Source: a virus
IMG/VR virus record: IMGVR_UViG_3300021957_004984
Location: 1-22,896 of that record
Length of the DNA: 22,896 bases
Reading direction: 5' to 3' (one strand)
Made by a program: the position numbers and the translations under genes
Notes under the pieces: model-generated
What the model was told of the DNA's origin: nothing
The model's input: the letters and a program-made list of their open reading frames with translations, nothing else
Database searches by the model: none
Shown here: positions 1 to 22,096 of the stretch, piece by piece
How the letters are laid out: every line of letters begins with the position of its first letter
Numbering within the stretch: position 1 is the stretch's first letter

Positions 1-372
1 CGTGCGGAATGTAAACTTGTAGGAAATGTTGAAAAAAGTGCGGCGGCAATGCCAGGTATTGTTGAACATCGTTTTAATCAACTACAAGAGATTGAGGCTA
101 TACTCAACTATTTAAATATTGAGCTACGTAGATTGCGTAGCTCATTTTTTAAAAAATATCTCGAAAACTATCAACGAGCTCTGTCAAGCCGGGACGTTGA
201 AAAATACGTAGACGGTGAGGCAGACGTTGTTGACTATGAAAAGATTATCAACGAGTTTGCACTAATGCGTAACAAGTGGCTAGGTGTACTCAAAGCTCTT
301 GATCAAAAGCAATGGCAAATTACAAACGTAGTTAAGCTCAGAGTAGCGGGCATGGAAGATGCATCAGTTTAA
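1..372 (+). CDS. uvsY: UvsY-like recombination mediator, C-terminal part
   Basis: This frame is open from the first base, so the gene begins upstream of the window; 123 residues are visible and a first internal Met lies at 49. The protein is small, charged and mostly helical, with Arg/Lys-rich stretches (LRRLRSSFFKKYL) and the tail WQITNVVKLRVAGMED. That tail resembles the end of T4 UvsY, where a large aliphatic helix precedes I-x-x-x-x-D-x-R-x-F-x-A-G. UvsY (137 aa in T4) loads UvsX recombinase onto gp32-coated single-stranded DNA. Its length, charge and the presence of uvsW in the same window fit. The similarity is by eye and weak, so a different small T4-like phage protein is possible. The stop overlaps the next gene's start by 14 nt. 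Confidence 0.5.
   Translation, partial: RAECKLVGNVEKSAAAMPGIVEHRFNQLQEIEAILNYLNIELRRLRSSFFKKYLENYQRALSSRDVEKYVDGEADVVDYEKIINEFALMRNKWLGVLKALDQKQWQITNVVKLRVAGMEDASV
120..150 (+). terminator. Terminator-shaped hairpin inside the uvsY-like gene
   Basis: A perfect 9-bp stem, TGAGCTACG (120-128) with CGTAGCTCA (136-144), closes a 7-nt loop and is followed directly by six T (145-150). This is the layout of an intrinsic terminator on the plus strand. It lies wholly inside an open reading frame, encoding the ELRRLRSSFF segment, so it may be chance, may attenuate transcription into the glycan island, or may only work when the gene is not being translated. Confidence 0.45.
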
Positions 373-1072
373 AACATGGATCATAAGACTATCAACTAAC
401 GAGCATTCATGTAACATGGCTGAGCAATGTAAGCAACAGGCTGCAAAGTTTGGCATTGCGGCAGAATATTTTGAAGGCATCAACGGCTTAGACGTAGACA
501 AACATTACGATCTTACTGATGTTCCGAGACCTAAAAAAAATCTTAAAAAAGGTCGAATAGGTGTTTTAGGATGCTTCTTTAGTCATTACTATCTATGGCA
601 AAATTGTTGGCTACAACAAGAACCTTACCTTATACTAGAACACGACGGTTATATAATTAGAGACATACCTACAAACATTTGTAATCAATTTACAGATGTT
701 TTAAAGTTAGACAGAAACGATCCCTTTAGTAGTGAATATAATCAAATTATAGAAAAAGAATCAACATTAGATTTTAAAATTGAAAAATATATAAACAAGT
801 CTCCAAAAGCAATCCATAAAATCGGAACTGGAAATTATTTCAAGGGAGCATATTCGTATATTTTACAACCTTCGGGTGCAAAAAAATTACTTGATTTTAT
901 TCATAAAAACGAAAACAAAAAAGGACACAGGCCTGCTGATCAGCAAATAGGTGACGAAGTATTAGATACTTGGACTACTATTCCTACAGTAGCAAGACTA
1001 CATCCTTTTTATTCAGAAGGCACAAATATAAAAACAACTAGTTTAACAGGAAATCCTGAGTTATTGGAGTAA
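359..1072 (+). CDS. Glycosyltransferase family 25-like protein
   Basis: A 237-aa protein with the layout of family 25 (LPS-type) glycosyltransferases. It has an N-terminal strand with K-T-W-I-I-R-L, then GVLGCFFSHYYLW at residues 68-80, matching the family's G-x-x-G-C-x-x-S-H-x-x-x-W motif, and LILEHDG at 91-97 in place of the usual L-I-L-E-D-D. The first acidic residue and the final Asp of that motif are kept, with His in the middle. A conserved Tyr-rich middle region (GNYFKGAYSYIL) and a later G-A-K-K-L-L also fit. Such enzymes transfer a sugar from a nucleotide sugar to LPS or a related acceptor. The ATG lies inside the end of the uvsY-like gene, and the next gene begins 6 nt after the stop. 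Donor and acceptor cannot be told. Confidence 0.75.
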   Translation: MHQFKTWIIRLSTNEHSCNMAEQCKQQAAKFGIAAEYFEGINGLDVDKHYDLTDVPRPKKNLKKGRIGVLGCFFSHYYLWQNCWLQQEPYLILEHDGYIIRDIPTNICNQFTDVLKLDRNDPFSSEYNQIIEKESTLDFKIEKYINKSPKAIHKIGTGNYFKGAYSYILQPSGAKKLLDFIHKNENKKGHRPADQQIGDEVLDTWTTIPTVARLHPFYSEGTNIKTTSLTGNPELLE

Positions 1073-1078
1073 GCAGAT

Positions 1079-1699
1079 ATGAAAGAATTAACAGAAAATA
1101 GGAAAGGGTGGATTTGGCCTATTAGTGACACAAACTGTTGGTCATATATGCAATCTCATCCAGACTTGCCGCAACTTATATCTAAACATGCAAATCAAAA
1201 ACGTGTATGTGTTCAAGCAGGCGGCAATATGGGCTATTATGTAAAACAATACGCAGAGCTTTTTGATACAGTATATACTTTCGAACCCGAGCCTGTAAAC
1301 TTTTATTGTTTAAATTTAAATGTAACTTCGCCTAATGTATTTAAATACCAGTCATGTTTAGGTAACAGTCGAGACTTAGTTGCATTAAAAATTAAAGCAA
1401 AGAATCGAGGTAAAAATTTTGTTAACGGCTCTGGCGTTATACCTACACTTTTAATTGACGATTTAAATTTAGAAGTATGTGATCTTATACATTTAGATAT
1501 AGAAGGTTACGAATTATTTGCATTACAAGGTGCAATTAAAACAATTAAAAAATGTAGACCTACTGTCTGTATAGAATTTTTTGAAAAATGTTCAACACGT
1601 TTCAATTATACATTAGATGACATTGAACAACTAATGCAGTCTTGTAACTATAAACTTAAAGTAACTTACGAGGAAGAGCGAGTGTATATTCCTGCTTAA
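1079..1699 (+). CDS. FkbM-family SAM-dependent methyltransferase
   Basis: A 206-aa Rossmann-type methyltransferase. Motif I is CVQAGGNMGYY at residues 44-54, where the first Asp/Glu usually seen is Gln. The acidic end of the second strand is TFEPEP (67-72). The FkbM signature D-L-I-H-L-D-I-E-G-Y-E at about 135-145 is followed by ALQGA and a P-T-V-C-I-E-F strand. FkbM-type enzymes O-methylate sugars or polyketides, and in glycan clusters they usually methylate a sugar hydroxyl. It sits between a GT25-like enzyme and a sulfotransferase. Its last 4 nt (TTAA) are shared with the end of the convergent sulfotransferase gene. Confidence 0.8.
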   Translation: MKELTENRKGWIWPISDTNCWSYMQSHPDLPQLISKHANQKRVCVQAGGNMGYYVKQYAELFDTVYTFEPEPVNFYCLNLNVTSPNVFKYQSCLGNSRDLVALKIKAKNRGKNFVNGSGVIPTLLIDDLNLEVCDLIHLDIEGYELFALQGAIKTIKKCRPTVCIEFFEKCSTRFNYTLDDIEQLMQSCNYKLKVTYEEERVYIPA

Positions 1700-2352
1700 A
1701 AGGTATATTTAAAGTTATCTATATCTTCTTGATATCTTTTCTCTACAAACTTTTTGCTTTTGTCTGAATATAGATTTTGGTATGGTATAGTTGAGCTTTT
1801 ACTTCTATTTGTTACATTTAGTTTCTGACCAGTAAAAATAGGAATACTTTGAAATCCGTCAGCTAGTTCCTCATATTTAATAATCTTATCTATCTGTAAT
1901 TTATTACTTTGCAACCAATGCGATTGATTAATTGCCAAACTAAACCATGTGTAATCCCAAGGTTGATCTAGATAATTATATAGCCAATCATCAAAATTAG
2001 TTTCCATTAGAGAATATTCTTGTTGTATTTCACTATGAGTACGTGCTACTTTTTTTGCCTGTTTAATAGGATTTTTTAGAGCCTTAGCAAGAATACTTTT
2101 CCTAAAAAAATACCAACTCGATATTCTTGACCAAGGATTTCTAACAACAGTAAATGAATAAAAATTGTCTGTGTTTTGGACATAACTTTCGGCATCTTGT
2201 AAAGTACTATGAAAATTTGTATTTTTTGTTCTATTATTCTTTATTATAGTTGTACCGTATAACTCATTAGCAAGCGTCATAATAGCATTACCTGCTGTTT
2301 TTGGAATATGTATAAACAAAACTTTACTTGGTGAATTTATAATGTAGCTCAT
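1696..2352 (-). CDS. PAPS-dependent carbohydrate sulfotransferase
   Basis: A 218-aa protein of the Sulfotransfer_2 type. The N-terminal 5'-phosphosulfate loop is FIHIPKTAGNA (residues 13-23) and the 3'-phosphate-binding segment is FTVVRNPWSRISS (67-79), both in the expected order and spacing. Such enzymes move sulfate from PAPS to a sugar hydroxyl. The start cannot be later because the PAPS loop is almost N-terminal. It is the only minus-strand gene in the glycan island. An exact T4 late motif, TATAAATA, ends 5 nt before its ATG, so its transcript may be leaderless and late. No Shine-Dalgarno is visible. Confidence 0.85.
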   Translation of the reverse strand: MSYIINSPSKVLFIHIPKTAGNAIMTLANELYGTTIIKNNRTKNTNFHSTLQDAESYVQNTDNFYSFTVVRNPWSRISSWYFFRKSILAKALKNPIKQAKKVARTHSEIQQEYSLMETNFDDWLYNYLDQPWDYTWFSLAINQSHWLQSNKLQIDKIIKYEELADGFQSIPIFTGQKLNVTNRSKSSTIPYQNLYSDKSKKFVEKRYQEDIDNFKYTF

Positions 2353-2357
2353 AAAAG

Positions 2358-2365
2358 TATTTATA
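2358..2365 (-). promoter_or_regulatory. Candidate T4-type late promoter for the sulfotransferase
   Basis: Read on the minus strand this is TATAAATA, the exact T4 late -10 consensus, followed by CTTTT and the sulfotransferase ATG at 2352. T4 late transcripts start a few nucleotides after this motif, which would place the 5' end at or next to the ATG. Recognition by a gp55-like sigma factor is inferred, and no such gene is in the window. Confidence 0.55.
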
Positions 2366-2378
2366 TGTTAACTGCGTA

Positions 2379-2386
2379 CATAAATA
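2379..2386 (+). promoter_or_regulatory. Candidate late promoter before the nucleotidyltransferase gene
   Basis: CATAAATA fits the degenerate late motif NATAAATA reported for marine T4-like phages. It is followed by TCAGT and ATG at 2392. It lies back to back with the minus-strand TATAAATA at 2358-2365, separated by only 13 nt. If functional, its transcript would begin at about 2392, which favours 2392 over 2365 as the start of the downstream gene. Confidence 0.45.
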
Positions 2387-2391
2387 TCAGT

Positions 2392-3168
2392 ATGAGCAAT
2401 GTTGTATTAGTTAGTGGCGGCTTTGATCCCTTACACTCAGGGCACATAGCCTATTTTAAAGAAGCAAAAAAATTAGGTTCAAAGCTAGTAGTAGCGTTGA
2501 ATTCAGATGAATGGCTAACACGTAAAAAAGGTAGACCGTTTATGCCTTTTGAAGAACGTGCAGCAATTGTAAAAGAGTTAAAAGTAGTAGACGAAGTTAT
2601 TGGTTTTGACGACAGCGATGATAGCGCATGCCAAGCAATTTTTCAAACACTAAGTACACACGGATCAGGCAGTAAAGTAATATTTGCTAACGGTGGCGAT
2701 AGGACTAATACTACAACACCAGAATATAAAACATATGGTAGTATGCCCTATGTAGATTTTGCGTTTGGTATTGGCGGCGAGAATAAAGCTAATAGTAGTA
2801 GTTGGATATTAGACGAGTGGAAAACACAAAAAACAGAACGTGACTGGGGTTATTGGCGTGTACTAGATCACAAACCCGAACAAGGATACAAAGTAAAAGA
2901 GCTTGTAATATATCCTGGCAAAAGTTTAAGTGATCAAAAGCACTTTAAACGTTCAGAACAGTGGATTGTACTTGAAGGCAAAGTTGATATGGTATCTGAA
3001 TGGAAGTCAAATGTTAACAGGGTTTTGTTAACTCCAGACCGATCACCTTATGAAATCGGAATTGAAGTTTGGCACAAGCCAAGCAATCCCGGAACAGAAA
3101 ACGCACACATCCTTGAGATACAATGGGGCAGTGAGTGCATAGAAGAAGACATTGAAAGAAGAGATTAA
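2392..3168 (+). CDS. Cytidylyltransferase-like enzyme fused to a cupin domain
   Basis: A 258-aa fusion. Residues 1 to about 130 are a nucleotidyltransferase of the RfaE-C/TagD superfamily: VLVSGGFDPLHSGHIAYF carries the H-x-G-H motif at 15-18, followed by ALNSDEWL and a K-K-G-R-P-F segment. These enzymes usually attach CMP or AMP to a sugar phosphate, glycerol phosphate or similar. From about 160 on, the sequence resembles the cupin of type II mannose-6-phosphate isomerase/GMP enzymes (W-G-Y-W-R-V-L, then HFKRSEQWIVLEGKVDM, and a late E-I-Q-W-G). An upstream in-frame ATG at 2365 would add nine residues. ATG 2392 is chosen because the conserved strand follows at once and the late motif lies just before it. 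It overlaps the next ATG (TAATG). Confidence 0.8.
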   Translation: MSNVVLVSGGFDPLHSGHIAYFKEAKKLGSKLVVALNSDEWLTRKKGRPFMPFEERAAIVKELKVVDEVIGFDDSDDSACQAIFQTLSTHGSGSKVIFANGGDRTNTTTPEYKTYGSMPYVDFAFGIGGENKANSSSWILDEWKTQKTERDWGYWRVLDHKPEQGYKVKELVIYPGKSLSDQKHFKRSEQWIVLEGKVDMVSEWKSNVNRVLLTPDRSPYEIGIEVWHKPSNPGTENAHILEIQWGSECIEEDIERRD

Positions 3169-4850
3169 TGCAGCCGTTAAAAATTTTTGTAGGTTATGAT
3201 CCTAGAGAGGATATTGCATTTCAAGTATGTAAACAAAGCATTCTTGATACTGCTAGTGTGCCTGTAGAAATTATTCCACTTAAACAACGGAATTTAAGAA
3301 AACAACGGCTATATACTCGTCCAGTAGATCCTTTAGCAAGTACTGAATTTACATTTACACGTTTCTTAGTCCCCCATTTAACTGATTACAGTGGTTGGGC
3401 ATTATTCATTGATTGTGATTTTGTAGCTCTTACCGATATTAAAAAACTATTTGATCAGACAGACAACAAGTATGCAGTAATGTGTGCGCATCACGATTAT
3501 ACTCCTAAAGAAGGTCTTAAAATGGACGGACAAACACAGACAGTCTACCCACGTAAGAATTGGAGTTCGTGTGTATTATTCAATTGTTCACATATAGCTA
3601 ATACTAAATTAAACTTAGGATTAATTAATAATAAGCACACTACAGGAGCATACTTACACAGGTTTAGTTGGTTAGAAGATAATCAAATTGGACAAATATC
3701 ACACGAATGGAATTGGTTAGTCGGGTGGTATGAAGAGCCAAAAGACGGCAAACCTAAAATGTTACATTACACAGAAGGCGGTCCGTGGTTTGAACAATAC
3801 CAAGACTGCGAATATGCAAATGAGTATTATAAAATTGAACGTAAATATCACCAGCAACTTATAGAAAAGTATACTAGTAAAGTAATATATCCAACACAGC
3901 TAACGCTTAACCATTCAAAAAAAAAATTAGTTGATGATTTATTAAAAGTTTTAGTAGATCCTGTTGGTCAATTTTATAATCTAGATGCAGACAATGTAAT
4001 TAGAGAGATAGACGATATGATGAAAAATAAAAAAGGTTACAAGGTAGTAGCAATACATCCAGGAGACTCATTCGACTTAGACAAAAAGCAGTTATCATAT
4101 GATCGTTTATTAGAAGGATTTTGTAGTGGAGCCCACGGACGTCTTGGTGATTTTGATCAAGAATTAGATACTTCAATACCATTAGTTATTAGAGGTCTTG
4201 GAGGTAATAGTCAAAAAGCAATTAATCATTGTTGGGATACAGGAAGACATTTTTATGCAATAGACACTGGATACTTTGGCAATGAAAGAAGTAAAGCAAA
4301 AATATGGCATAGAATAACTAAAAATAATTTACAGCAACTTGAAATTATTGAACGTCCTACAGATAGATTACGTAGACATTCATGGAAGTATAAAAAGTTT
4401 ACGCCAGGTAATAAAATTCTTATTTGTCCTCCTAGTGATAAAGTAATGAAAATATTTGGACAACCAACAGCAGCAGAGTGGACAGAGCATGTATTAGCTG
4501 AGTTAAAAAAATATACAGATAGACCAATTGAAATAAGAATGAAGCCTATTAGATCAGAACGCATATCAACAGACACTATTGAAGGTGCATTATCGAATGA
4601 TGTACACTGTTTAATAACCTACAACAGTATTGCTGCAGTAGAAGCATTAGTAAATGGCAAGCCGGCTATTACACTAGGTCCTAATGCTGCATCAAGTTTA
4701 GCTGGCAATGATCTATCACAAGTTGAAAATCTTCCTGGACATGATAAAGATACTATGACTGCATTTATGGCGCATTTGTCATACTGCCAATTTACACATC
4801 AAGAGATGCTAGACGGAACAGCATGGCGTATGCTAAATGGTGATGATTAA
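3168..4850 (+). CDS. Two-domain glycosyltransferase: GT-A-like plus island-specific C-terminal domain
   Basis: A 560-aa protein. Residues 1 to about 240 form a GT-A-like domain of the glycosyltransferase 8-like kind: KIFVGYDPRED at the N-terminus, TEFTFTRFLVP at 59-69, and the metal-binding D-x-D in FIDCDF (80-85). From about 290 on there is a second domain with HPGDSF, a C-P-P-S-D segment, DRPIEIRM, then YNSIAAVEALVNGKPA, and a final DGTAWRML. This second part is homologous to the proteins at 4850-5779 and 6651-7529. The domain resembles the donor-binding half of capsule or lipid A type transferases, but I assign no donor. The start overlaps the preceding stop (TAATG) and the stop overlaps the next ATG, so translation is probably coupled. 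The fusion suggests two sequential sugar transfers by one protein (inference). Confidence 0.75.
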   Translation: MQPLKIFVGYDPREDIAFQVCKQSILDTASVPVEIIPLKQRNLRKQRLYTRPVDPLASTEFTFTRFLVPHLTDYSGWALFIDCDFVALTDIKKLFDQTDNKYAVMCAHHDYTPKEGLKMDGQTQTVYPRKNWSSCVLFNCSHIANTKLNLGLINNKHTTGAYLHRFSWLEDNQIGQISHEWNWLVGWYEEPKDGKPKMLHYTEGGPWFEQYQDCEYANEYYKIERKYHQQLIEKYTSKVIYPTQLTLNHSKKKLVDDLLKVLVDPVGQFYNLDADNVIREIDDMMKNKKGYKVVAIHPGDSFDLDKKQLSYDRLLEGFCSGAHGRLGDFDQELDTSIPLVIRGLGGNSQKAINHCWDTGRHFYAIDTGYFGNERSKAKIWHRITKNNLQQLEIIERPTDRLRRHSWKYKKFTPGNKILICPPSDKVMKIFGQPTAAEWTEHVLAELKKYTDRPIEIRMKPIRSERISTDTIEGALSNDVHCLITYNSIAAVEALVNGKPAITLGPNAASSLAGNDLSQVENLPGHDKDTMTAFMAHLSYCQFTHQEMLDGTAWRMLNGDD

Positions 4851-5779
4851 TGTTAACTGTTACTTCTTATCTAAAAGGTATTCCGCCCAGAAATAGAAAC
4901 CCAGAAAAACCCGAAGTGTTAATAAACTTTATTAAGGGTGTAAATGCTGTAGGTGATATTGGTAAAGTTGTAGATGGGTGGAAAGTAATTGACAGTGATG
5001 TTGCTGTTGTTCAAGGCTTTGTGCATCCTGGAAGTAAAAATGTAACACACTTAAATTTAAGAAAAAATGTGTTTGATACACAACAAAAAAATAATAAACG
5101 TAGTATTATAATTGATTCTAATTTGTTTTTATATGCTGATCCAGGAAATACTAAAAAATATTTAAGATACAGTTATGACGGTATCTTTCCTACTACTGGC
5201 GAATATTGTAATTCACAACCCACTCTTAATCGCTGGGATCAAATTAGTAAAGATCTTAATTTGTCTTTAAAGCCATGGAGTACTAATAAAGAAACTATTT
5301 TAATTTGTTGTCAACGAGACGGCGGCTGGAGTATGGACGGACAACAACTTATGCCATGGCTTGTAAAAACAATAATGGAAATTAAAAAACATTCAGATAG
5401 AAAAATAGTAGTTAGATTTCATCCAGGTGATCGTAATTCATCTAAGCATAAATCTGCGCTAATTAGATATAATTTACAAAATGTTTTTGTTACATCCAAC
5501 GAGTCAATTCTTACTGATTTTAAAACAGCACATGTAGTAGTAAACTATAATTCAAGTCCGGCAGTTGCAGCAGCAATTGAAGGCATACCAGTATTTGTAT
5601 TAGATTTAGAAAGAAGCCAAGCCAAAGATATTGCTAACACAGATATTAGTAAAATAGAAAATCCAGTACTATACGATAGAAGCGTATGGATACAGAAACT
5701 TGCTCAAATGCACTGGACATCAAATGAGCTTGCAGACGGAACAGCATGGAGGCACCTAAGACAATGGGCGACAAAGTAG
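4850..5779 (+). CDS. Glycan-biosynthesis protein, GT-B-like, paralogue 2
   Basis: A 309-aa protein. Its C-terminal half matches the second domain of the preceding gene product: ILICCQRDGGWSM, then DRKIVVRFHPGD, then VVNYNSSPAVAAAIEGIPVF, then IENP, and the closing DGTAWRHL. The R-F-H-P and N-S-S-P segments look like those of GT-B transferases of the capsule synthesis type, where the H-P and S-S-P loops bind the nucleotide sugar. The N-terminal half (VVQGFVHPG, then IIIDSNLFLYAD) has no motif I recognise. ATG 4850 overlaps the previous TAA (TAATG), and the end overlaps the next gene by 16 nt. Confidence 0.6.
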   Translation: MLTVTSYLKGIPPRNRNPEKPEVLINFIKGVNAVGDIGKVVDGWKVIDSDVAVVQGFVHPGSKNVTHLNLRKNVFDTQQKNNKRSIIIDSNLFLYADPGNTKKYLRYSYDGIFPTTGEYCNSQPTLNRWDQISKDLNLSLKPWSTNKETILICCQRDGGWSMDGQQLMPWLVKTIMEIKKHSDRKIVVRFHPGDRNSSKHKSALIRYNLQNVFVTSNESILTDFKTAHVVVNYNSSPAVAAAIEGIPVFVLDLERSQAKDIANTDISKIENPVLYDRSVWIQKLAQMHWTSNELADGTAWRHLRQWATK

Positions 5780-6654
5780 TAGTATTAACAACGTTTCATA
5801 AAGAAGGTATGGAAGTTTATGGACAAAGATTTTTAGATAGTTTTGCAAATAATGTTGCTAAAGCAATAAAACTAGTAGTATATGCAGAAGACTGTACACC
5901 TGTAAATCCTGATCCTAATCAGATTACTATACTAGACGCAAAAGAATCACTTCCTAAATTAAATAAATTTAAAGAACGCTGGAAAGACGATCCAAAAGCA
6001 AATGGCAAATGTCCATGGCCCGAACGTCGTCCACGAGATTGGCACAAAGAGTTTAAATGGCATGCTATTAGATTTGCAAACAAAACTTATGCTGTATTTG
6101 ACCAATGTCATAAAAGTTACGGAACAGGTAAATGGGTAGTTTGGATGGATGCAGATACCTTTGTACATAGTCCTTGGGCGTATAAAGACTTTATGGATCT
6201 ATTACCAGAAGATCACTGGGCTACATATGTTGGCAGAGGAAAGGGAGTTAATCCGGGTCCAGAAGGAAAAATGGTAGTTAAGAACTGGCCAGAATGTGGA
6301 TTCTATGGTATTAATATGAATCATCCTGTAGGGTGCAGCTTTGTTGAAGAATTTGAACGCATGTATGAAGATGCTGACAACGGTATATTTACATTAGAGG
6401 AATGGCACGATAGTTATGTTTTTGGCAGCATATTATTTGAACTTAAATTAAAATTTCCAAAGGCATTAGATTACACTGCTGAGATTGCAGTAAACAATTT
6501 AGCAAAGTCTGGAGGCGGCGGACATCCTTTAATTAATAGTAAATTAGGAAAATGGATGGACCATATGAAGGGCGATAGAAAGTTTGCTGGATCATCAAAA
6601 AAGAAAGATGTAATGACACACAGAACAGAATCTTATTGGCAAACAGTAAAATGA
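5764..6654 (+). CDS. GT-A-like glycosyltransferase with a D-x-D motif
   Basis: A 296-aa protein. KVVVLTTFHKEG opens a Rossmann-like strand, and WVVWMDADTFVHSP (residues 124-137) supplies the D-A-D metal site typical of GT-A transferases. A later ECGFYGINMNHP and a region with EEWHDSYVF fit the acceptor side of such folds. The start is placed at ATG 5764, before the conserved strand, with GGAGG at 5748-5752 eleven bases upstream inside the previous gene. An in-frame ATG at 5746 is less likely because it would put that site inside the coding region. It overlaps the next gene as ATGA. Sugar specificity is unknown. Confidence 0.7.
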   Translation: MGDKVVVLTTFHKEGMEVYGQRFLDSFANNVAKAIKLVVYAEDCTPVNPDPNQITILDAKESLPKLNKFKERWKDDPKANGKCPWPERRPRDWHKEFKWHAIRFANKTYAVFDQCHKSYGTGKWVVWMDADTFVHSPWAYKDFMDLLPEDHWATYVGRGKGVNPGPEGKMVVKNWPECGFYGINMNHPVGCSFVEEFERMYEDADNGIFTLEEWHDSYVFGSILFELKLKFPKALDYTAEIAVNNLAKSGGGGHPLINSKLGKWMDHMKGDRKFAGSSKKKDVMTHRTESYWQTVK

Positions 6655-7529
6655 TTTTTTGTTTATATACAGACTACGGAGCATTAAATTCTAAGCCTGT
6701 ATTTGAAGCGTTTGCGCAAAGTGTAACTGATGCTGGCCATACTGTAATATATAACGAACCATATAGAGTAATGGATCATTATAGTAATTATGATGTTGCA
6801 GTCATATGGAGTGTTTTGTGGAACGGACGTATGATACATAATAAACAAGTATGGGAGCAAAACCGTAAACTGAATCGACCAGTTATTGTTTTAGAAGTAG
6901 GTGGCATTGAACGCGGAACAACATGGAAGGTAGGATTAAATGGAATCAACAGAGATGCTTACTTTGGTGACAAAGACAATGATAGGACTAGGGCTGATAG
7001 CTTGGGACTGGTTTGTAAGCCTTGGAGATCCAACGGCGATTTTATTCTAGTATGCGGACAGCATGATAAGAGTTTACAGTGGCAAAACATGCCACGTATG
7101 AGTAATTGGTTCTTAAATACATACGATGAAATACGTAAATACACTGAACGCCCAATTGTATTTCGGCCACATCCTCGTTGTAGACTAGAACATATAGAAC
7201 GTGGGCTTAAAAATGTATATAGACAGGAACCACAACATGTTAACGGCACCTATGACGATTTTGATATGGGGTTTAGTAATGTGTGGGCTACTGTCAGTTA
7301 TAGCTCAAATCCAGGGACACACTCTTGTATCAATGGTGTTCCAGCTTTTGTTAGTACCCATAGTCTTGCTTATAGTGTTGGTAATGACATAGACTTTCTT
7401 TACGATATAGAAAATCCGTTAATGCCAGATAGACAACAATGGCTTAATGACTACGCACATACTGAATACACAATTGAAGAAATATCACAAGGTACCCCAC
7501 TTAAACACTTGACAAACCAGTTATTTTAA
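6651..7529 (+). CDS. Glycan-biosynthesis protein, GT-B-like, paralogue 3
   Basis: A 292-aa protein homologous over its C-terminal half to the products at 3168-4850 and 4850-5779. Shared landmarks are FILVCGQHD, then ERPIVFRPHPRC, then VSYSSNPGTHSCINGVPAF, then IENPL, and a closing QGTPLKHL. The N-terminal half (MIFCLYTDYG, then VIVLEVGG) is Rossmann-like. The ATG overlaps the preceding stop (ATGA); a TTG in frame at 6636 was not used. The -35 box of the next promoter is encoded inside its last codons, so that promoter is intragenic. It may be a nucleotide-sugar-dependent transferase. Confidence 0.6.
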   Translation: MIFCLYTDYGALNSKPVFEAFAQSVTDAGHTVIYNEPYRVMDHYSNYDVAVIWSVLWNGRMIHNKQVWEQNRKLNRPVIVLEVGGIERGTTWKVGLNGINRDAYFGDKDNDRTRADSLGLVCKPWRSNGDFILVCGQHDKSLQWQNMPRMSNWFLNTYDEIRKYTERPIVFRPHPRCRLEHIERGLKNVYRQEPQHVNGTYDDFDMGFSNVWATVSYSSNPGTHSCINGVPAFVSTHSLAYSVGNDIDFLYDIENPLMPDRQQWLNDYAHTEYTIEEISQGTPLKHLTNQLF

Positions 7530-10172: not shown

Positions 10173-10678
10173 TGAGAATATTAACCTTAGAAAATCAATG
10201 CTTCAATTTAGACGAACTACCAGATACAATAGAAGACGATGTACGCTTTAGTGTACTTGATAACAGTGATCCAAAAAACCCTGATTTCTTTTTTGTGCCT
10301 TTGATCTTTTTAGAATCATTTAGTTCTCCAGCAATGGTATTAGAAATTGGCGGCAAAGAAATTACAATGCCAGTTGATTGGAGTATTGCTGTAGGCTGTT
10401 CAGAAAGCGGCAATGATCTAGAAATACTACCCTTAACAAGTATTAATGATAGAGGATTTGAAGCATTCATATTTAATCCGTTATCGAGTTTTAAACCTAA
10501 CTTTGCAGATATTAATATTGTAAATTTTTATACAGATGTAAAATGGTATTTTCCAAAACTAAAAAACGGACAATTATTAAGTGTACCAATAGGCGACGGA
10601 CATAAGCCTGATTGTGCGTTTTTTGTAAAAGATATTAGCAGACAATGCGAAGTTATAGAATACAGTCTATTGATGTAA
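10172..10678 (+). CDS. Conserved hypothetical protein of marine T4-like phages
   Basis: A 168-aa protein with no enzyme motif. Landmarks are ENQCFNLDELP near the start, DFFFVPLIFLESF, MPVDWSIAVG, DRGFEAFIFNPLSSF and the end segment CAFFVKDISRQCEV. I recall similar unnamed proteins next to uvsW in marine T4-like phages. The sequence is acidic and strand-rich with no signal peptide. ATG 10172 overlaps the uvsW stop (TAATG) and is preferred over an in-frame ATG at 10163. Confidence 0.8.
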   Translation: MRILTLENQCFNLDELPDTIEDDVRFSVLDNSDPKNPDFFFVPLIFLESFSSPAMVLEIGGKEITMPVDWSIAVGCSESGNDLEILPLTSINDRGFEAFIFNPLSSFKPNFADINIVNFYTDVKWYFPKLKNGQLLSVPIGDGHKPDCAFFVKDISRQCEVIEYSLLM

Positions 10679-10926
10679 TGATACCAGGCGAGACACTAAT
10701 ATACGAGCGAGTAGACGGAGTTGTCTATGCTCGCTATCGAGATATGCCTGATATTGATCGTTGGATTGTTGGAGGAGATCCGGGAGGAATGGCTAGAGCA
10801 CAAGGTGATTTATTTGACTACAGTGAATGGCAAAACTTGTGTAAATTGGCAAAAACAAATACTACTCTTAAAAAATTAATGGATAAGTTAGTAACAACTT
10901 ATTACATTGTAAAGGAAGAAAAATGA
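10678..10926 (+). CDS. Small conserved phage protein, 82 aa
   Basis: An 82-aa protein, MIPGETLIYERVDGVVYARY at the N-terminus and LVTTYYIVKEEK at the C-terminus. It looks like a compact alpha/beta protein with a C-terminal helix plus strand, and I recall near-identical openings in unnamed cyanophage proteins. The ATG overlaps the previous TAA (TAATG). An in-frame ATG at 10645 inside the previous gene was rejected. The function is unknown; it sits between two other conserved small genes and kdsA. Confidence 0.75.
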   Translation: MIPGETLIYERVDGVVYARYRDMPDIDRWIVGGDPGGMARAQGDLFDYSEWQNLCKLAKTNTTLKKLMDKLVTTYYIVKEEK

Positions 10927-11699
10927 GAATTATAGCAGGACCCTGCCAACATGAATCACTACAGCAAAGTTTAGAGATTGCAAAAGAATGCAAACGTGTA
11001 TGCGACAAGTATGATATTGATTATTACTTTAAAGCAAGTTATGACAAAGCTAATCGAAGTAGTTTACAGGGAGTGCGCGGCCTCGGAATAAATGCAACAC
11101 TTAACCACTTCCTAGAACTAAAAGTAGAACTAGGTGTAAAAACACTTACTGATGTTCATGATCATGTACAAGTTGCACGTATTGAAAGAGAATTTAAATA
11201 TGCAGTTGATGTCTATCAGATTCCTGCATTCTTGTGTAGACAAACTGATCTACTAAAAGCAGTATGTGCTACAGATAAAATTGTTAATATTAAAAAAGGA
11301 CAGTTTCTAGCACCCTGGGACATGAAAGGCATTTTGTCTAAAACCGATGGTGCTAAGGAAGTTTGGATCACTGAGCGAGGAACTAGTTTTGGATACAACA
11401 ACTTGGTTGTTGATTTTACCGGCATTGATTATATGCTTTCTACTTTTGATTGCCCTGTGGTTTTTGATGCCACACACAGCGTACAGAAGCCGGGTGGCCT
11501 TGGAGGTAGTAGCGGCGGCAATAGGGATTACGTTCCTGGTTTACTTCGCGCGGCAAGTGCTTTGGGTGTTAGAGACTTCTTTATAGAGACACACCCTGAC
11601 CCAGATAACGCACCCAGCGACGGACCAAATATGTTACGCTTAGACGACTTTGAAAAGGTTGTTAAAGATATTATTGCAATTAGAAAGGCAGTAGAATGA
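10923..11699 (+). CDS. kdsA: 3-deoxy-8-phosphooctulonate (Kdo-8-P) synthase, metal-dependent type
   Basis: A 258-aa KdsA, slightly shorter than bacterial enzymes (about 270-285). It condenses phosphoenolpyruvate with arabinose 5-phosphate to give Kdo 8-phosphate. Visible signatures are IAGPCQHES, FKASYDKANRSS (37-47), LCRQTDLL, VNIKKGQFLAPWDMK (121-135), ERGTSFGYNNLVVD (151-164), FDATHSV (181-187), ETHPDPD and SDGPN. The metal ligands of the Aquifex-type enzyme are all present: Cys8, His185, Glu222 and Asp233. Escherichia coli, which uses the metal-free type, has Asn at the Cys position. It overlaps its neighbours at both ends, and kdsB follows 160 nt later after a 53-aa gene. No kdsD or kdsC is in the window, so arabinose 5-phosphate and dephosphorylation must come from the host or other phage genes. 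Confidence 0.95.
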   Translation: MRIIAGPCQHESLQQSLEIAKECKRVCDKYDIDYYFKASYDKANRSSLQGVRGLGINATLNHFLELKVELGVKTLTDVHDHVQVARIEREFKYAVDVYQIPAFLCRQTDLLKAVCATDKIVNIKKGQFLAPWDMKGILSKTDGAKEVWITERGTSFGYNNLVVDFTGIDYMLSTFDCPVVFDATHSVQKPGGLGGSSGGNRDYVPGLLRAASALGVRDFFIETHPDPDNAPSDGPNMLRLDDFEKVVKDIIAIRKAVE

Positions 11700-11857
11700 A
11701 AAAAGAGAAGTCTCCGTATATGGAAATTATTAATCGCGAATGTAAAAAAGATGGCAAAGGCCGTTTTAAGACATTAGATGTATTACGTGTATCTAGACGA
11801 TTATATGATGAGCAGCAAGAACTTATCAATTTGATTGCAACACGGACACGTAAGTAG
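11696..11857 (+). CDS. Small basic protein, 53 aa, between kdsA and kdsB
   Basis: This short frame was found by eye. It encodes MKKEKSPYMEIINRECKKDG followed by KGRFKTLDVLRVSRRLYDEQ and a tail ending in TRTRK. It is rich in Lys and Arg, helical and has no membrane segment. Its ATG overlaps the kdsA stop as ATGA, and the kdsB ATG follows its stop by 1 nt, so it fits exactly into the operon. The tight fit argues for a real gene; the function is unknown, possibly nucleic-acid binding by charge. Confidence 0.7.
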   Translation: MKKEKSPYMEIINRECKKDGKGRFKTLDVLRVSRRLYDEQQELINLIATRTRK

Positions 11858-11858
11858 A

Positions 11859-12542
11859 ATGAAGAAAACAGCAATACTAATTCCAGCACGTTACGCAAGC
11901 ACACGCCTGCCTGGAAAGCCTTTAATACAGTTAGATGGCGTTCCTATGATAAAACGTGTGTATGACGCTTGTGTTGCGTCTAAGATACCAACATACGTGC
12001 TTACTGATGACGATCGTATTGCTGATAAATTTGATCCAGAACATGTATTGTTAGATTCGGCAAAATACGAAAACGGTACAGAAAGATGCGCAGGCGCAAT
12101 TAAGAATGCAAGGTTTGACAAGTACGATCAGTTTATAAACGTACAAGGCGACATGCCAGATGTAACATCTGATATAATTGAAAAATGCCAGTGGCACTTA
12201 CTAAACTATTCTGTAACAACAGTGTTTACAGACATGCCTAAAGATAAACAAAATGATCCTAATTCAGTCAAGATGGTACGTGGAGCCGATCAAGCATTAT
12301 GGTTTGGCAGAGGCATGACTGGATATGGAGAATGGCACTTGGGTGTTTACGGGTACAAGCGTAATGCATTAGAAATGTATAGTAACTTAGAAGTAACACA
12401 AGAAGAACAAGTAGAGAAACTAGAACAACTCCGATGGTTAAAAAACGGTTGGCAAATTGGTTGTTTGAGTGTATACTATAATGGAGTAGAAATAAATTCT
12501 CCAGAGGATGTAGAAGAATGGCACAGCAAGCATTTCCAGTAA
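11859..12542 (+). CDS. kdsB: CMP-Kdo synthetase (3-deoxy-manno-octulosonate cytidylyltransferase)
   Basis: A 227-aa protein, somewhat shorter than E. coli KdsB (248). It forms CMP-Kdo from CTP and Kdo. The N-terminal nucleotide loop is IPARYASTRLPGKPL (8-22). NGTERCAG (72-79) matches the S-G-T-E-R-x-A segment, and INVQGDMPDV (93-102) carries the catalytic Asp of V-Q-G-D-E-P. The usual Glu there is Met. HLGVYGYKRNALE, LEQLRWLKNG and INSPEDVEEW follow, the last keeping the C-terminal metal-binding Asp (217). The shortened middle loop accounts for the length. The ATG follows the previous stop by 1 nt; an upstream in-frame start at 11835 was not used. Confidence 0.93.
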   Translation: MKKTAILIPARYASTRLPGKPLIQLDGVPMIKRVYDACVASKIPTYVLTDDDRIADKFDPEHVLLDSAKYENGTERCAGAIKNARFDKYDQFINVQGDMPDVTSDIIEKCQWHLLNYSVTTVFTDMPKDKQNDPNSVKMVRGADQALWFGRGMTGYGEWHLGVYGYKRNALEMYSNLEVTQEEQVEKLEQLRWLKNGWQIGCLSVYYNGVEINSPEDVEEWHSKHFQ

Positions 12543-14005: not shown

Positions 14006-14503
14006 ATGGAGTTAGTATATTATCCAGATCCTATTCTAAGTAAAGAATTACAAGATGTAAATATTGAAGAACCACAGTTTGATCCTTTGCGTCTAAAAAA
14101 AGACATGGCTGTAGCTATGTTGTTAAATAACGGCATAGGACTTACAGCATCACAAGTTGGTTTAGACTATAAAGTGTTTACCATGGGCGACAAAGCCGAA
14201 AATGTTACTTTACATATTAACCCAACTGTGTTACAATATACTGAAGAAGTTAATACAGAGCTTGAAGGTTGTTTAAGTTTTCCAGGAATGTTTGTAAAAG
14301 TAAAACGTCCGGCTGAAATACTTGCAGAATATTATGACGAGTTTCTTAAAAAACAAACAGTTAAAATTACAGGATATAGTGCTAGAGTTTATCTACACGA
14401 ATTAGATCATTGTTTGGGTATTACTATGAAAGATAGATGTAGTAAAATAAAATGGGATATGGCAAAGAAAAAAGCACGTAAGATGGAGAAGAGAGTTGCC
14501 TGA
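14006..14503 (+). CDS. def: Peptide deformylase
   Basis: A 165-aa phage-type deformylase with all three catalytic motifs. GIGLTASQVG (43-52) matches G-x-G-L-A-A-x-Q, EGCLSF (87-92) carries the metal Cys89, and HELDH (131-135) gives His131, Glu132 and His135. It removes the formyl group from nascent proteins. Deformylases are known from marine phages, where they are thought to support host organelle or bacterial translation during infection. A GAGGAAA ribosome site lies about 9 nt before the ATG. The last 8 nt overlap the next gene. All catalytic residues are present. Confidence 0.95.
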   Translation: MELVYYPDPILSKELQDVNIEEPQFDPLRLKKDMAVAMLLNNGIGLTASQVGLDYKVFTMGDKAENVTLHINPTVLQYTEEVNTELEGCLSFPGMFVKVKRPAEILAEYYDEFLKKQTVKITGYSARVYLHELDHCLGITMKDRCSKIKWDMAKKKARKMEKRVA

Positions 14504-15056
14504 TATTGATATAGATTTTGCTGATCGAGATGTAATACTATCTAAACTTACACATCGTGTGGCAAAATTAAACACAGGCAAAAAACATAATACTGGAGTA
14601 TATGCTACTGAGATTCCACACAACCCAGTAGATAATCTAAGTACTATCGAACACAAGACAGCTGACGAACGTGGCTATTTTAAATTAGATTTTTTAAATG
14701 TAAGTATATACAAAGATGTTACAAATGAAGAACATCTTCAACGACTAATGACTAAGGAACCACAATGGGCACTCCTCGAACACGACGATTTCAGCAGTCT
14801 AGTATTTCACGTCGCAGGACATGGAACTATATTAAAGACAATGCGTCCGAGAACAATAGAACAATTAGCAGCAGTACTAGCAATGATACGTCCAGCCAAG
14901 CGACACTTAGTTGGAGAAACTTGGGAAACAGTGATGAAGGAAGTTTGGATAAAACCAACGGACAATAGTTATTACTTTAAGAAAGCCCATGCAGTGAGCT
15001 ATGCAATGGCTGTTGTAGTGCATATGAACTTAATATGCGATAAAATTAGTTCTTAG
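14496..15056 (+). CDS. Miniature DnaE-like (DNA polymerase III alpha) protein
   Basis: A 186-aa protein that keeps the landmark motifs of C-family polymerases in the right order but compressed. PDIDIDFADRD (2-12) matches the catalytic D-x-D segment. KHNTGVY (30-36) matches H-A-A-G-V-V-I. KLDFLNV (63-69) matches K-F-D-F-L-G-L with the third catalytic Asp at 65. TIEQLAAVLAMIRPAKR (120-136) matches the L-A-A-x-x-A-L-x-R-P-G-P segment. FKKAHAVSYAMA (161-172) matches F-K-S-H-A-A-A-Y-A. The PHP, thumb and beta-binding parts of the usual 1,100-1,200 aa enzyme are absent. The start is TTG 14496 with GGAG at 14485-14488. Recalled relatives occur in T4-like cyanophages. Whether it synthesises DNA is unknown. 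The end overlaps a convergent gene by 11 nt. Confidence 0.8.
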   Translation: MPDIDIDFADRDVILSKLTHRVAKLNTGKKHNTGVYATEIPHNPVDNLSTIEHKTADERGYFKLDFLNVSIYKDVTNEEHLQRLMTKEPQWALLEHDDFSSLVFHVAGHGTILKTMRPRTIEQLAAVLAMIRPAKRHLVGETWETVMKEVWIKPTDNSYYFKKAHAVSYAMAVVVHMNLICDKISS

Positions 15057-17248: not shown

Positions 17249-17382
17249 TGAAAACAATTAAAAAGGTATTAAAGTTTGTGTGGTCTATTATTACATGGCC
17301 GTATAGAAAGATTAAAGAAGAAATTAAATTCCGCAAACGTATGAAAGAATTACGGGAAAAGGACCCGTTCATTTACAAATGA
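17248..17382 (+). CDS. Small basic phage protein, 44 aa
   Basis: This short frame was found by eye between primase and carbamoyltransferase. It reads MKTIKKVLKFVWSIITWPYR, then KIKEEIKFRKRMKELREKDP and FIYK. An amphipathic, possibly membrane-associated N-terminal helix is followed by a charged helix. I recall marine T4-like phage proteins with the same W-P-Y-R and D-P-F-I-Y-K ends. Its ATG overlaps the primase stop (TAATG) and its stop overlaps the next ATG (ATGA), which strongly supports translation. The function is unknown. Confidence 0.78.
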   Translation: MKTIKKVLKFVWSIITWPYRKIKEEIKFRKRMKELREKDPFIYK

Positions 17383-18338
17383 TTATCTGGGGATTAGTTG
17401 GCAACAGCCACGATGCTAGTTTAGCAGTATTTAATAATGAAGAATTGTTATGGGCAGCACTTGCTAAAGATTTTAGCGGAGTGCCCAACGATCCTCACCT
17501 AAATAAAAAACTAATTAAAAAAGCACTTAAATTTGGGGCACCAAAAGAAATTATTTGGTACGAACGTCCTTTCTTAAAAACTATTAGACAATGGCGAGCT
17601 GGGCAAGGCTGGCTAGGCAAAGAAAACAATATAGCTTCATATCTTTATGAACACAATATTGTTCGTCCAATACAGTACACCCAACATCATCATTCACATG
17701 CAGCTTATGCGTACTACACACAGCCACATGATAATTGTGCAGTTATTTGCTTAGATAGCATTGGTGAATTTGAAACACTAACCATATGGCATGGGAAGAA
17801 CAATAAACTAAAAAAGATATACAGTCAAGGCTATCCACATAGCCCAGGTTTATTTTACTCTGCAATGACACAACGTGTTGGTGGCGTTGCACAAAGAGAC
17901 GAGTACATGATTGCAGGCATGGGTAAAGACCATAACCCTGAGTACTATAGAAGTGCAATGATGGACGAGCTTATACTAAAAATGCCTACAGCCAGTAACC
18001 CGTCCTGGAAGTTTAAGACTAATTTACATCGAGGGTGCAATTGGTTTTTGCCTGAAGCTACGGATAATGAAGCCATGGGTAAACTTGCAGCAACTACCCA
18101 ACAGGTTTTTGAAGAAGCTGTCCAAGGCCTTAGTACATGGGCTCTATGGAAAACTAAAAGCCCTAACTTAGCACTAGCAGGCGGCGGCGCACTTAATCGC
18201 CAGGCTGTAGATAAAATACGGTCACATTGGAATAATATACACGTACCCCGAAACCCTGGAGACCCTGGTAGCTGTATTGGCGCTGTTTTAGCAAAAACAA
18301 AAACAAAAGTAGACCTAGAAGGAAAGTGGGTTGAATAA
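17379..18338 (+). CDS. Carbamoyltransferase, Kae1-like domain only
   Basis: A 319-aa member of the NodU/CmcH/TobZ carbamoyltransferase family. It has GLVGNSHDASLAVF near the start, the metal/substrate motif HHHSHAAYAYY (103-113), AVICLDSIGE, PGLFYSAMTQ and LALAGGGALNRQA. These belong to the N-terminal Kae1-like (ASKHA) domain. Family members are usually about 550-600 aa and have a second, YrdC-like domain that makes carbamoyl-adenylate. That part is absent here, and the frame closes cleanly 44 nt before the next ATG. The protein may use a host-made carbamoyl-AMP, or act in another way. The substrate may be a sugar in the nearby glycan pathway (inference). Confidence 0.85.
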   Translation: MIIWGLVGNSHDASLAVFNNEELLWAALAKDFSGVPNDPHLNKKLIKKALKFGAPKEIIWYERPFLKTIRQWRAGQGWLGKENNIASYLYEHNIVRPIQYTQHHHSHAAYAYYTQPHDNCAVICLDSIGEFETLTIWHGKNNKLKKIYSQGYPHSPGLFYSAMTQRVGGVAQRDEYMIAGMGKDHNPEYYRSAMMDELILKMPTASNPSWKFKTNLHRGCNWFLPEATDNEAMGKLAATTQQVFEEAVQGLSTWALWKTKSPNLALAGGGALNRQAVDKIRSHWNNIHVPRNPGDPGSCIGAVLAKTKTKVDLEGKWVE

Positions 18339-20542: not shown

Positions 20543-22096
20543 ATGATCGGAAGACTAGCTGCAGTTGACTTGGATGCTGTATCTACAGCAACTAGTATAT
20601 ACAGATGTAGAACTACAGGATATGCAGCGGTTAGCTTAACTGTATGTAACAGAGGCACATCGTCTGCTAACATTACAATAAGCATAAGCGACACAGTTAA
20701 TGCAACAGACTTAGCTGGAACAATAGAATTCCAATATTCAATACCTGCCAAGGACGTTCTAGAACGCACGGGCATAGTGGTTGGTTCTACACAATACCTT
20801 ACAATTACATCATCATCAACAGACATTAGTATTATAGCAATGGGTGCCGAAACAGGCGAGTTTGATTCAGATATTGCAGATATCCCACTTCCGGTTTTTG
20901 AATGGAGTCAAACATATGGCTTTGACAATCCTAATGATTATTCTGGCGCCAGCGACGATGAATTCGGTAAAAGTATTGCTATAGGAAACAACTATATGGT
21001 AGCTGGTGCAGACTTTGAAGACGATGCAGGCGGTAGTGCTTCAGGTAAAGCCTATGTGTACAGCACATCAACTGGCGCACTCACATACACATTGGACAAT
21101 CCAAATGGCCATGATACTACAGCAGGTGACAGATATGGTTTTGCCGTTGCTGTTAGTGACAACCATATTGTAGTTAGCGCACCATACGAAGACGATTCAA
21201 ACGGTACTTCACAGGGTAAGGTATATGTGTATAATCCAAGCACGGGCGGATTAACCCGCACTATCGACAATCCAAGCAGCAGTTACCTGCGTGGTGATCA
21301 ATTTGGTTGGGCTCTTGCTATAGACAGTGACACGCTACTGGTTGGTGCGCATTGGTACGCAGATTATGATGGCCGGGCTTATCTTATCAATGCCAGTACA
21401 GGCAGTGTACTACACACACTGGAAAATCCCAATAGTTATGACGAACTTGGCACCGACAATGATACCTTTGGAGAAAGCGTGGCCATACACGGCAACTTGT
21501 GTATTGTTGGTGCACCTCATGAAGACAAAGCAGGCAGCGGTACATCAGGCAGTCGCGTGGGAGCAGCCTACATTTTTAATGTAAGCACAGGCGCAACTGA
21601 ACACACACTACTAAATCCAGATCCAGACAATGATGCAGAAAATGATCAATTTGGCGAAAGTGTAGCTATACACGGCAGCTATGCAGCAGTTGGAGCTCCG
21701 GGCGAAGGATCCACTCCCGAGGGAGGATATGTATACATATACAACACTTCAACAGGAGCACTTGTACAATCAATAGCTGCACCTTCAGGTGCAGACAGCT
21801 GGTCAATTGGACGCCTAAGATCGTTAGCCATGAACGCAGACTACGTATTCATGGGCGATTATGGAGCAACAATCGACGGTGAATTCGGCCAAGGCAAAGT
21901 GTATGTGTACCGTATTTCAACAGGCGCACTTGTACACACTATAGTAAATCCTCAAACAGCAAGTGGAGTCAACAACAGTCAATACTTTGGCAGTGCTGTT
22001 GCAGCTGTGGGCAACAGAATTGCTGTAGCTGAAGAACGACATAGAGTAGGCGGCGCGAACTTCGCAGGCAAAGCACACATCTACGACCTCGACTAG
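20543..22096 (+). CDS. FG-GAP beta-propeller protein with a virion-type N-terminal domain
   Basis: A 517-aa protein. Residues 1 to about 115 (GRLAAVDLDAVSTATSIYR, then EFQYSIPAKDVLERTGIVV) resemble small tail-associated domains of marine phages. From about 125 there are seven FG-GAP-like repeats of about 50-58 residues, each with D-x-F-G-x-x-x-A, then V-G-A, G-K-x-Y-V-Y, S-T-G-x-x-x-x-T and N-P. The seventh ends in G-K-A-H-I-Y-D, with the first strand supplied by the segment before repeat 1, as in a closed seven-blade propeller. Repeats 1, 2 and 4 have D/E-rich calcium-type loops. Integrin-like propellers bind ligands, so this is a candidate receptor-binding or virion adhesin. The DNA here looks richer in G and C and in repeated codons than its neighbours. 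A late promoter and AAAAGGAT precede it. Confidence 0.88.
   Translation: MIGRLAAVDLDAVSTATSIYRCRTTGYAAVSLTVCNRGTSSANITISISDTVNATDLAGTIEFQYSIPAKDVLERTGIVVGSTQYLTITSSSTDISIIAMGAETGEFDSDIADIPLPVFEWSQTYGFDNPNDYSGASDDEFGKSIAIGNNYMVAGADFEDDAGGSASGKAYVYSTSTGALTYTLDNPNGHDTTAGDRYGFAVAVSDNHIVVSAPYEDDSNGTSQGKVYVYNPSTGGLTRTIDNPSSSYLRGDQFGWALAIDSDTLLVGAHWYADYDGRAYLINASTGSVLHTLENPNSYDELGTDNDTFGESVAIHGNLCIVGAPHEDKAGSGTSGSRVGAAYIFNVSTGATEHTLLNPDPDNDAENDQFGESVAIHGSYAAVGAPGEGSTPEGGYVYIYNTSTGALVQSIAAPSGADSWSIGRLRSLAMNADYVFMGDYGATIDGEFGQGKVYVYRISTGALVHTIVNPQTASGVNNSQYFGSAVAAVGNRIAVAEERHRVGGANFAGKAHIYDLD

Follow-up and report, generated by a model that had tools for sequence, protein, structure and literature searches.

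A phage-borne kdsA-kdsB gene pair and neighbouring candidate Kdo-type transferases in a marine T4-like phage lineage

The genes kdsA, encoding 3-deoxy-D-manno-oct-2-ulosonic acid (Kdo)-8-phosphate synthase, and kdsB, encoding a divergent cytidine monophosphate (CMP)-Kdo synthetase, are a fixed part of one marine lineage of T4-like large phages, in which they lie inside the replication block. We examined this pair in one entire IMG/VR viral contig of 22,896 bases (IMGVR_UViG_3300021957_004984, hereafter the window), which also encodes paralogous proteins predicted to have the fold of beta-Kdo transferases. An initial, sequence-only reading of the window had proposed that a phage making CMP-Kdo might use it to alter the host surface or to decorate its virions, and the transferase-fold proteins are candidates for a concrete downstream step in that idea. 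The explanation we favor, and consider reasonably probable, is that the phage boosts CMP-Kdo, which its Kdo-type transferases then spend on a glycan that the phage specifies, carried by the virion or by the host. The identity of KdsA, the family of KdsB, the conservation of the genes, the transferase fold and the RxHP motif described below were all established by computation.

The window carries T4-type replication genes for UvsY, UvsW, a primase and a DnaB-type helicase, the last of which is closest to proteins of the large phages PA5oct (54%) and Atu_ph07 (51%). Among 16 larger contigs of the same lineage, which may each be incomplete, eight include the T4-type capsid gene gp23, so the pair resides in a tailed phage and not in host DNA. 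Two scans of IMG/VR returned 203 KdsA-like and 164 KdsB-like stretches, from which 80 loci of each were kept; removal of 17 contig-repeating loci and of L001, the window's own locus, left 131 distinct contigs for comparison. Both genes are present on 123 of these, with kdsA alone on four and kdsB alone on four. In 93 of the 123 pair-bearing contigs, kdsB overlaps kdsA or lies no more than 12 bases from it (the overlaps are upper bounds, as longest-open-reading-frame starts were used), and in the remaining 30 the two are separated by 106 to 1271 bases. The usual gene order is uvsW, a 171-amino-acid gene, a cupin gene, a 93-amino-acid gene, kdsA, kdsB, a 152-amino-acid gene and a 229-amino-acid gene; in the window the cupin gene sits further downstream. 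The conserved 93-amino-acid gene (10645..10926, plus strand), found in 97 of the 131 contigs and matching no Pfam or PHROG family, overlaps the ATG start of kdsA with its stop codon by four bases (ATGA).

The pair had been described at the outset as lying together with a tiny gene in between. The pair is real and phage-borne, but the tiny gene, a 53-amino-acid open frame (11696..11857, plus strand), is incidental: blastp finds it in only three of the 131 contigs, and it was ruled out as part of the module. Other genes occur at this position elsewhere. A HemE-type open reading frame (ORF) separates kdsA and kdsB in five of the 17 insert-bearing loci listed (L067, L061, L029, L148 and L064), and in L067 (10764-11738) it is a full-length uroporphyrinogen decarboxylase (PF01208, 2.4e-65). 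The intervening ORF in L004 (10749-11378) carries a CxxxCxxC-like stretch and is a possible radical S-adenosylmethionine protein.

KdsA (10923..11699, plus strand, 258 amino acids) scores above the cut-offs of both TIGR01362 (KDO8P_synth; 339.3 bits versus 314) and PRK05198 (348.4 bits versus 242). In metal-dependent KdsA the ligands are Cys, His, Glu and Asp, and the non-metal class has Asn in place of the Cys (available text of PMC3052366). The initial claim that Cys8, His185, Glu222 and Asp233 are kept proved exact in its positions, and all four residues are unchanged across 35 aligned phage KdsA sequences, which supports placing the window protein in the metal-using class. The phage enzyme belongs to the same family, with the same ligand set, as metal-dependent bacterial KdsA such as PDB entries 3fs2 and 1fwn. 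Relative to these bacterial enzymes, however, the phage sequences are set apart: they group in a single exclusive clade with a long stem (Shimodaira-Hasegawa-like approximate likelihood ratio 98, in a tree with 18 of the 35 aligned phage sequences). Phylogeny of KdsA and KdsB against candidate hosts had been suggested as a check; for KdsA, host assignment was dropped, as the phage clade stands apart and points to no donor. Between the window and its nearest relative, L003, kdsA differs by seven synonymous and zero amino-acid changes. Against two more distant relatives, the ratio of nonsynonymous to synonymous substitution rates (dN/dS) is 0.08-0.09 for kdsA and 0.16-0.25 for kdsB, so both genes are under purifying selection.

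Two sets of database matches were set aside. KdsA matches in Listeria, Enterococcus and Staphylococcus (26-28% identity) were taken, from their low identity, as probable members of the related 3-deoxy-D-arabino-heptulosonate-7-phosphate synthases. 'Acinetobacter phage MD-2021a' was rejected as a phage relative on finding its kdsA and kdsB in the chromosomal orders pyrG-kdsA-eno and lpxK-kdsB; its records CAKLQF020000008 and CAKLQH020000011 appear to be mislabelled host DNA, judged from two opened regions around kdsA and kdsB.

The putative transferases lie 3-6 kb upstream of the pair. The class A protein (6651..7529, plus strand) has 292 amino acids counted from an inner ATG, its ORF opening at 6636 with TTG, and contains QHDKS at residues 137-141 and RPHP at 172-175. 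The class B protein (4850..5779, plus strand, 309 amino acids) has the corresponding QRDGG at 155-159 and RFHP at 189-192. The third member (3168..4850, plus strand) joins a GT8-like glycosyltransferase domain (PF01501, 2.2e-4, under the cut-off; phrog_28018) to a degenerate C-terminal copy without the HP motif, at about residues 366-557, which is matched at 2.3e-24 by a hidden Markov model of the family built from the class A (A1) and class B (A2) alignments. Classes A and B align to each other with 100% hhalign probability, and by such profile comparisons the three proteins (the C-terminal part of 3168-4850, 4850-5779 and 6636-7529) are paralogues. No Pfam family scores over its cut-off in these paralogue regions.

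AlphaFold (AF2) models of the two classes have a predicted local distance difference score of 92.6 for class A (6651-7526) and 94.7 for class B (4850-5776). In Foldseek searches of the PDB, ranks 1-19 for class A (best KpsC, 2e-7) and ranks 1-26 for class B (best KpsC, 6e-8) are all chains of KpsC, WbbB or KrkA. VIA-align gave Z scores of 11.2-14.3 over 233-247 residues for class A, where the best non-Kdo structure reached 9.9, and of 12.5-14.4 for class B, where the margin over the best non-Kdo structure (11.0) is modest. These confident models therefore point to both classes sharing the beta-Kdo transferase fold of KpsC, WbbB and KrkA. Among viral structures, class B best matches (2e-18) a Tetraselmis virus 1 protein named 'capsule polysaccharide biosynthesis protein', and this virus, too, encodes proteins of that fold.

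A fourth class, D, a sister paralogue that is absent from the window, sits in the sugar cluster of its nearest relatives, L002 and L003. The catalytic signature of the known beta-Kdo transferases consists of a nucleophilic Asp within QxxxD, a Glu that acts as base and a CMP-binding (K/R)xHP motif (available text of PMC10148158, PMC9587256 and PMC12887879). In class D, Glu70, Gln138, Asp142, Arg177, His179 and Pro180 are invariant in four divergent sequences (alignment A5), and class D retains the full catalytic signature of QxxxD, (K/R)xHP and a conserved Glu. Both motifs are present at all 14 class D loci of kdsA/kdsB contigs and at 76 of the 80 that a similarity search retrieved, the others having RxH without Pro (three) or being incomplete (one). 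When 40 of the 131 contigs were searched whole, members of the transferase family were found on 35, and class D on 14.

In the scheme we favor, KdsA would join arabinose-5-phosphate and phosphoenolpyruvate into Kdo-8-phosphate, the host would dephosphorylate this product, and KdsB would link Kdo to CMP, leaving more CMP-Kdo in the infected cell. The phage transferases, classes A and B in the window and class D in its nearest relatives, would then consume the CMP-Kdo, with neighbouring GT25- and GT8-type glycosyltransferases, an FkbM methyltransferase and a sulfotransferase helping to build a Kdo-containing glycan on the virion or the infected cell. In this scheme we infer the enzyme activities, CMP-Kdo as the donor, the host steps and the location of the glycan. 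What was first described as a CMP-Kdo pathway turns out not to be whole: KdsC (TIGR01670) and KdsD/KpsF (TIGR00393) are each found on 0 of the 16 larger related contigs, which may be incomplete. Arabinose-5-phosphate and the dephosphorylation must therefore be provided by the host, or by some enzyme that escaped recognition, and the phage would bring the condensation that commits to Kdo and its later activation, the host probably supplying the remaining Kdo steps.

Several observations, on the similarity and catalytic residues of the transferases, on the distribution of the genes and on KdsB, weigh against this scheme. The link of the transferases to Kdo enzymes is weak when drawn from sequence: their profiles matched nothing above chance in the PDB, hhalign against bacterial KpsC and KpsS gave at most 28% probability, and the best PF05159 score (17.9 bits) is below the cut-off of 20. 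The position of the nucleophile is also altered. In class A it is occupied by Ser141 in all 63 full-length ORFs from distinct contigs. In class B, Gly159, which hhalign with the N-terminal module of KpsC aligns to the nucleophile Asp, occupies it in 40 of the 44 ORFs nearest to class B, and the other four have Asp and are of the class D type. Lacking the QxxxD nucleophile, classes A and B are not filed as members of GT99, GT107 or GT140, and would be unable to run the known double displacement. They share with the retaining enzymes KpsC (GT107), WbbB (GT99) and KrkA (GT140) the modelled fold, the Gln of QxxxD and RxHP, and class D shares the Asp as well; they differ from them in having Ser or Gly at the nucleophile, in being single-module proteins and in sequence similarity below significance.

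These facts allow different readings of classes A and B. Class A retains Gln137, Arg172-x-His174-Pro175 (RxHP in 63 of 63 full-length proteins) and Glu82, and class B retains Gln155, Arg189-x-His191-Pro192 (invariant in A2) and, at position 89, an acidic residue that hardly varies; from their place in the sequence, Glu82 and Asp89 may be the catalytic base. The most economical reading would be that the acidic base they retain drives a single displacement and the configuration is inverted. The full form of that reading is a tailed-phage Kdo glycosylation system, using the phage's CMP-Kdo through an expanded family of Kdo transferases, in which two paralogues lost the nucleophile, kept the CMP site and the acidic base, and became inverting enzymes making alpha-Kdo instead of beta-Kdo linkages on glycans of the virion or the host; we regard it as tentative and rather unlikely as a whole. 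Its main rivals are a different donor or dead partners: classes A and B would be transferases of CMP-sugars or other nucleotide sugars that departed from Kdo (sialyltransferase-like or with another donor), or inactive partners of class D, and their proximity to kdsA and kdsB would be inherited lineage synteny. The missing Asp fits this, as does the fact that RxHP is common to sialyltransferases too (available text of PMC12887879), and class D and Mosig-type relatives exist without kdsA. We nevertheless judge it unlikely, given that Kdo transferases fill all the top structural ranks, that both classes are strongly conserved, with Gln and RxHP invariant and an acidic residue where the base is expected, and that dN/dS of 0.09-0.13 for both classes speaks against dead proteins.

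Returning to the proposed use of CMP-Kdo by phage transferases, the distribution of the two gene sets is uneven. Besides the absence of class D from the window, KdsA was found on only eight of 22 class D contigs, many of them fragments (the 22 were chosen by length from 80 and include G035 and G038, whose kdsA had been identified beforehand, and two of the eight kdsA genes are partial at a contig end), and long class D contigs of 213 kb and 92 kb have no KdsA. Within 10-kb flanks, kdsA accompanies four of 80 class D loci, flanks that are too short for this purpose, since kdsA lies about 9-11 kb away where both are seen. Such transferases also occur in Pelagiphage Mosig and CcrColossus, which gave no KdsA or KdsB match in the phage collection searched. 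Conversely, two genuine-looking phage records with kdsA and kdsB, S-SCSM2R and LR756500, have no member of this transferase family, so the pair does not depend on it.

Such phages fit a generic metabolic boost, in which the pair raises host lipopolysaccharide (LPS) or capsule precursors and keeps the envelope intact during a long infection, host Kdo transferases use the CMP-Kdo, and the neighbouring enzymes use other sugars. That KdsA and KdsB are carried alone, with KdsC and KdsD on none of the larger contigs, and that the pair is located in the replication block, outside the variable sugar cluster, agree with it as well. It is put in doubt by the Kdo-fold transferases or family members on 35 of the 40 contigs searched whole, and by the lipid A Kdo transferase WaaA (N-terminal domain, PF04413), found on 0 of the 16 larger contigs; on balance we think it improbable.

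KdsB (11859..12542, plus strand, 227 amino acids) matches Pfam CTP_transf_3 (PF02348) at 3.8e-27, and the 13 best matches of its profile in the PDB are all KdsB or KpsU, with KdsB at 5.9e-41. Its top NCBIfam match, a CMP-Kdo synthetase subfamily (PRK05450.1-5), reaches 171.5 bits versus a cut-off of 193, and TIGR00466 gives 119.3 bits versus 155.2. Being below these cut-offs, the protein is called divergent and is assigned from its nearest relatives and gene context. The NVQGD motif, with the Gln and the first Mg-ligand Asp, is intact in every one of 138 phage KdsB ORFs with 215 or more amino acids (some from contig-repeating loci), and in the same set the second Mg-ligand Asp is replaced by Asn in 137 and by Thr in one. 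The window protein has Asn213 at this position and Glu211 two residues earlier. The Mg ligands are Asp98 and Asp225 in KpsU, the second being Asp235 in Escherichia coli KdsB, and the D211A change at the matching position of CMP-Neu5Ac synthetase lowers kcat 15,000-fold (available text of PMC2901514).

An enzyme so altered might activate another sugar acid or be inactive, and would no longer make CMP-Kdo, a reading that also draws on the scores below the NCBIfam cut-offs. However, a Glu-x-Asn-Asn-Pro pattern is also found in 12 of 25 comparison KdsB sequences, all from Rhodobacterales genomes, so loss of the second Mg-ligand Asp is compatible with KdsB activity. In the KdsB tree the phage group joins the Rhodobacterales KdsB at 94/88 support, a placement that carries a long-branch warning and includes the Mg-site trait columns. 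With purifying selection on kdsB and NVQGD intact throughout, we consider a loss of CMP-Kdo synthesis quite improbable. The 12 Rhodobacterales proteins (L293, L295, L296, L300, L301 and L303-L309), with WE-L/V-NNP and Asn for the Mg-ligand Asp, appear to be a natural bacterial variant.

The kdsA/kdsB pair by itself is not new, as phage copies have been listed as auxiliary metabolic genes (available text of PMC10653327 and of PMC5332604, the latter on an aceBA phage with KdsA). Those phages and cyanophage S-SCSM2R (PQ898602) likewise carry viral KdsA and/or KdsB among sugar genes in marine samples; in S-SCSM2R, kdsA and kdsB are on opposite strands and on long separate tree branches. The available portions of PMC10653327 and PMC5332604 draw no link to Kdo transferases, and a literature search limited to open-licence papers turned up no phage Kdo transferase. 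A near-complete CMP-Kdo module with proposed virion decoration occurs in a polar Mesomimiviridae genome (cited in the available text of PMC13335480), a eukaryotic giant virus, whereas here a tailed phage has a two-gene version.

Sugar-nucleotide genes in phages tend to be reported one by one as 'auxiliary' and given a vague role at the surface. In this case a donor-making pair can be linked to candidate transferases whose fold so far rests on few bacterial enzymes, and the product can be searched for directly. Kdo on virions would mean that a phage displays a sugar of bacterial LPS, and Kdo on the host that a phage changes the surface of marine bacteria. The nucleophile-less paralogues could serve as natural tests of how the double-displacement mechanism evolved.

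Other genes of the window also have predicted roles in sugar metabolism. Between classes A and B lies a probable glycosyltransferase (5746..6654, plus strand, 302 amino acids) with weak matches to PF13704 and PF00535 (E values of 0.012 and 0.1) and relatives in 65 of the 131 contigs. The variable left flank (359-2352) encodes a GT25-family glycosyltransferase (359..1072, plus strand; PF01755, 2.5e-14), an FkbM-type methyltransferase (1079..1699, plus strand; PF05050, 3.6e-16) and, on the opposite strand, a sulfotransferase (1696..2352, minus strand; PF03567, 1.6e-14), and L002 and L003 have a different FkbM gene and a class D transferase there. It is followed by a nucleotidyltransferase fused to a mannose-6-phosphate-isomerase-type cupin (2365..3168, plus strand; PF01467, 3.5e-15; PF01050, 8.4e-18), which is probably related to sugar nucleotides.

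Three further proteins were observed in the right half of the window. A 186-amino-acid protein (14496-15056), with relatives in 86 of the 131 contigs, matches phrog_11778, a family named DNA polymerase, at 2.3e-60; it looks like no more than a fragment of bacterial-type DNA polymerase III alpha. Adjoining the helicase gene, a 319-amino-acid ORF (17379-18338) has the carbamoyltransferase N-terminal domain alone, compared with a median of 409 amino acids in its relatives. Finally, a 517-amino-acid FG-GAP protein (20543-22096) with six repeats matched, whose relatives occur in just four of the 131 related contigs, is possibly a surface or adhesin-like protein.

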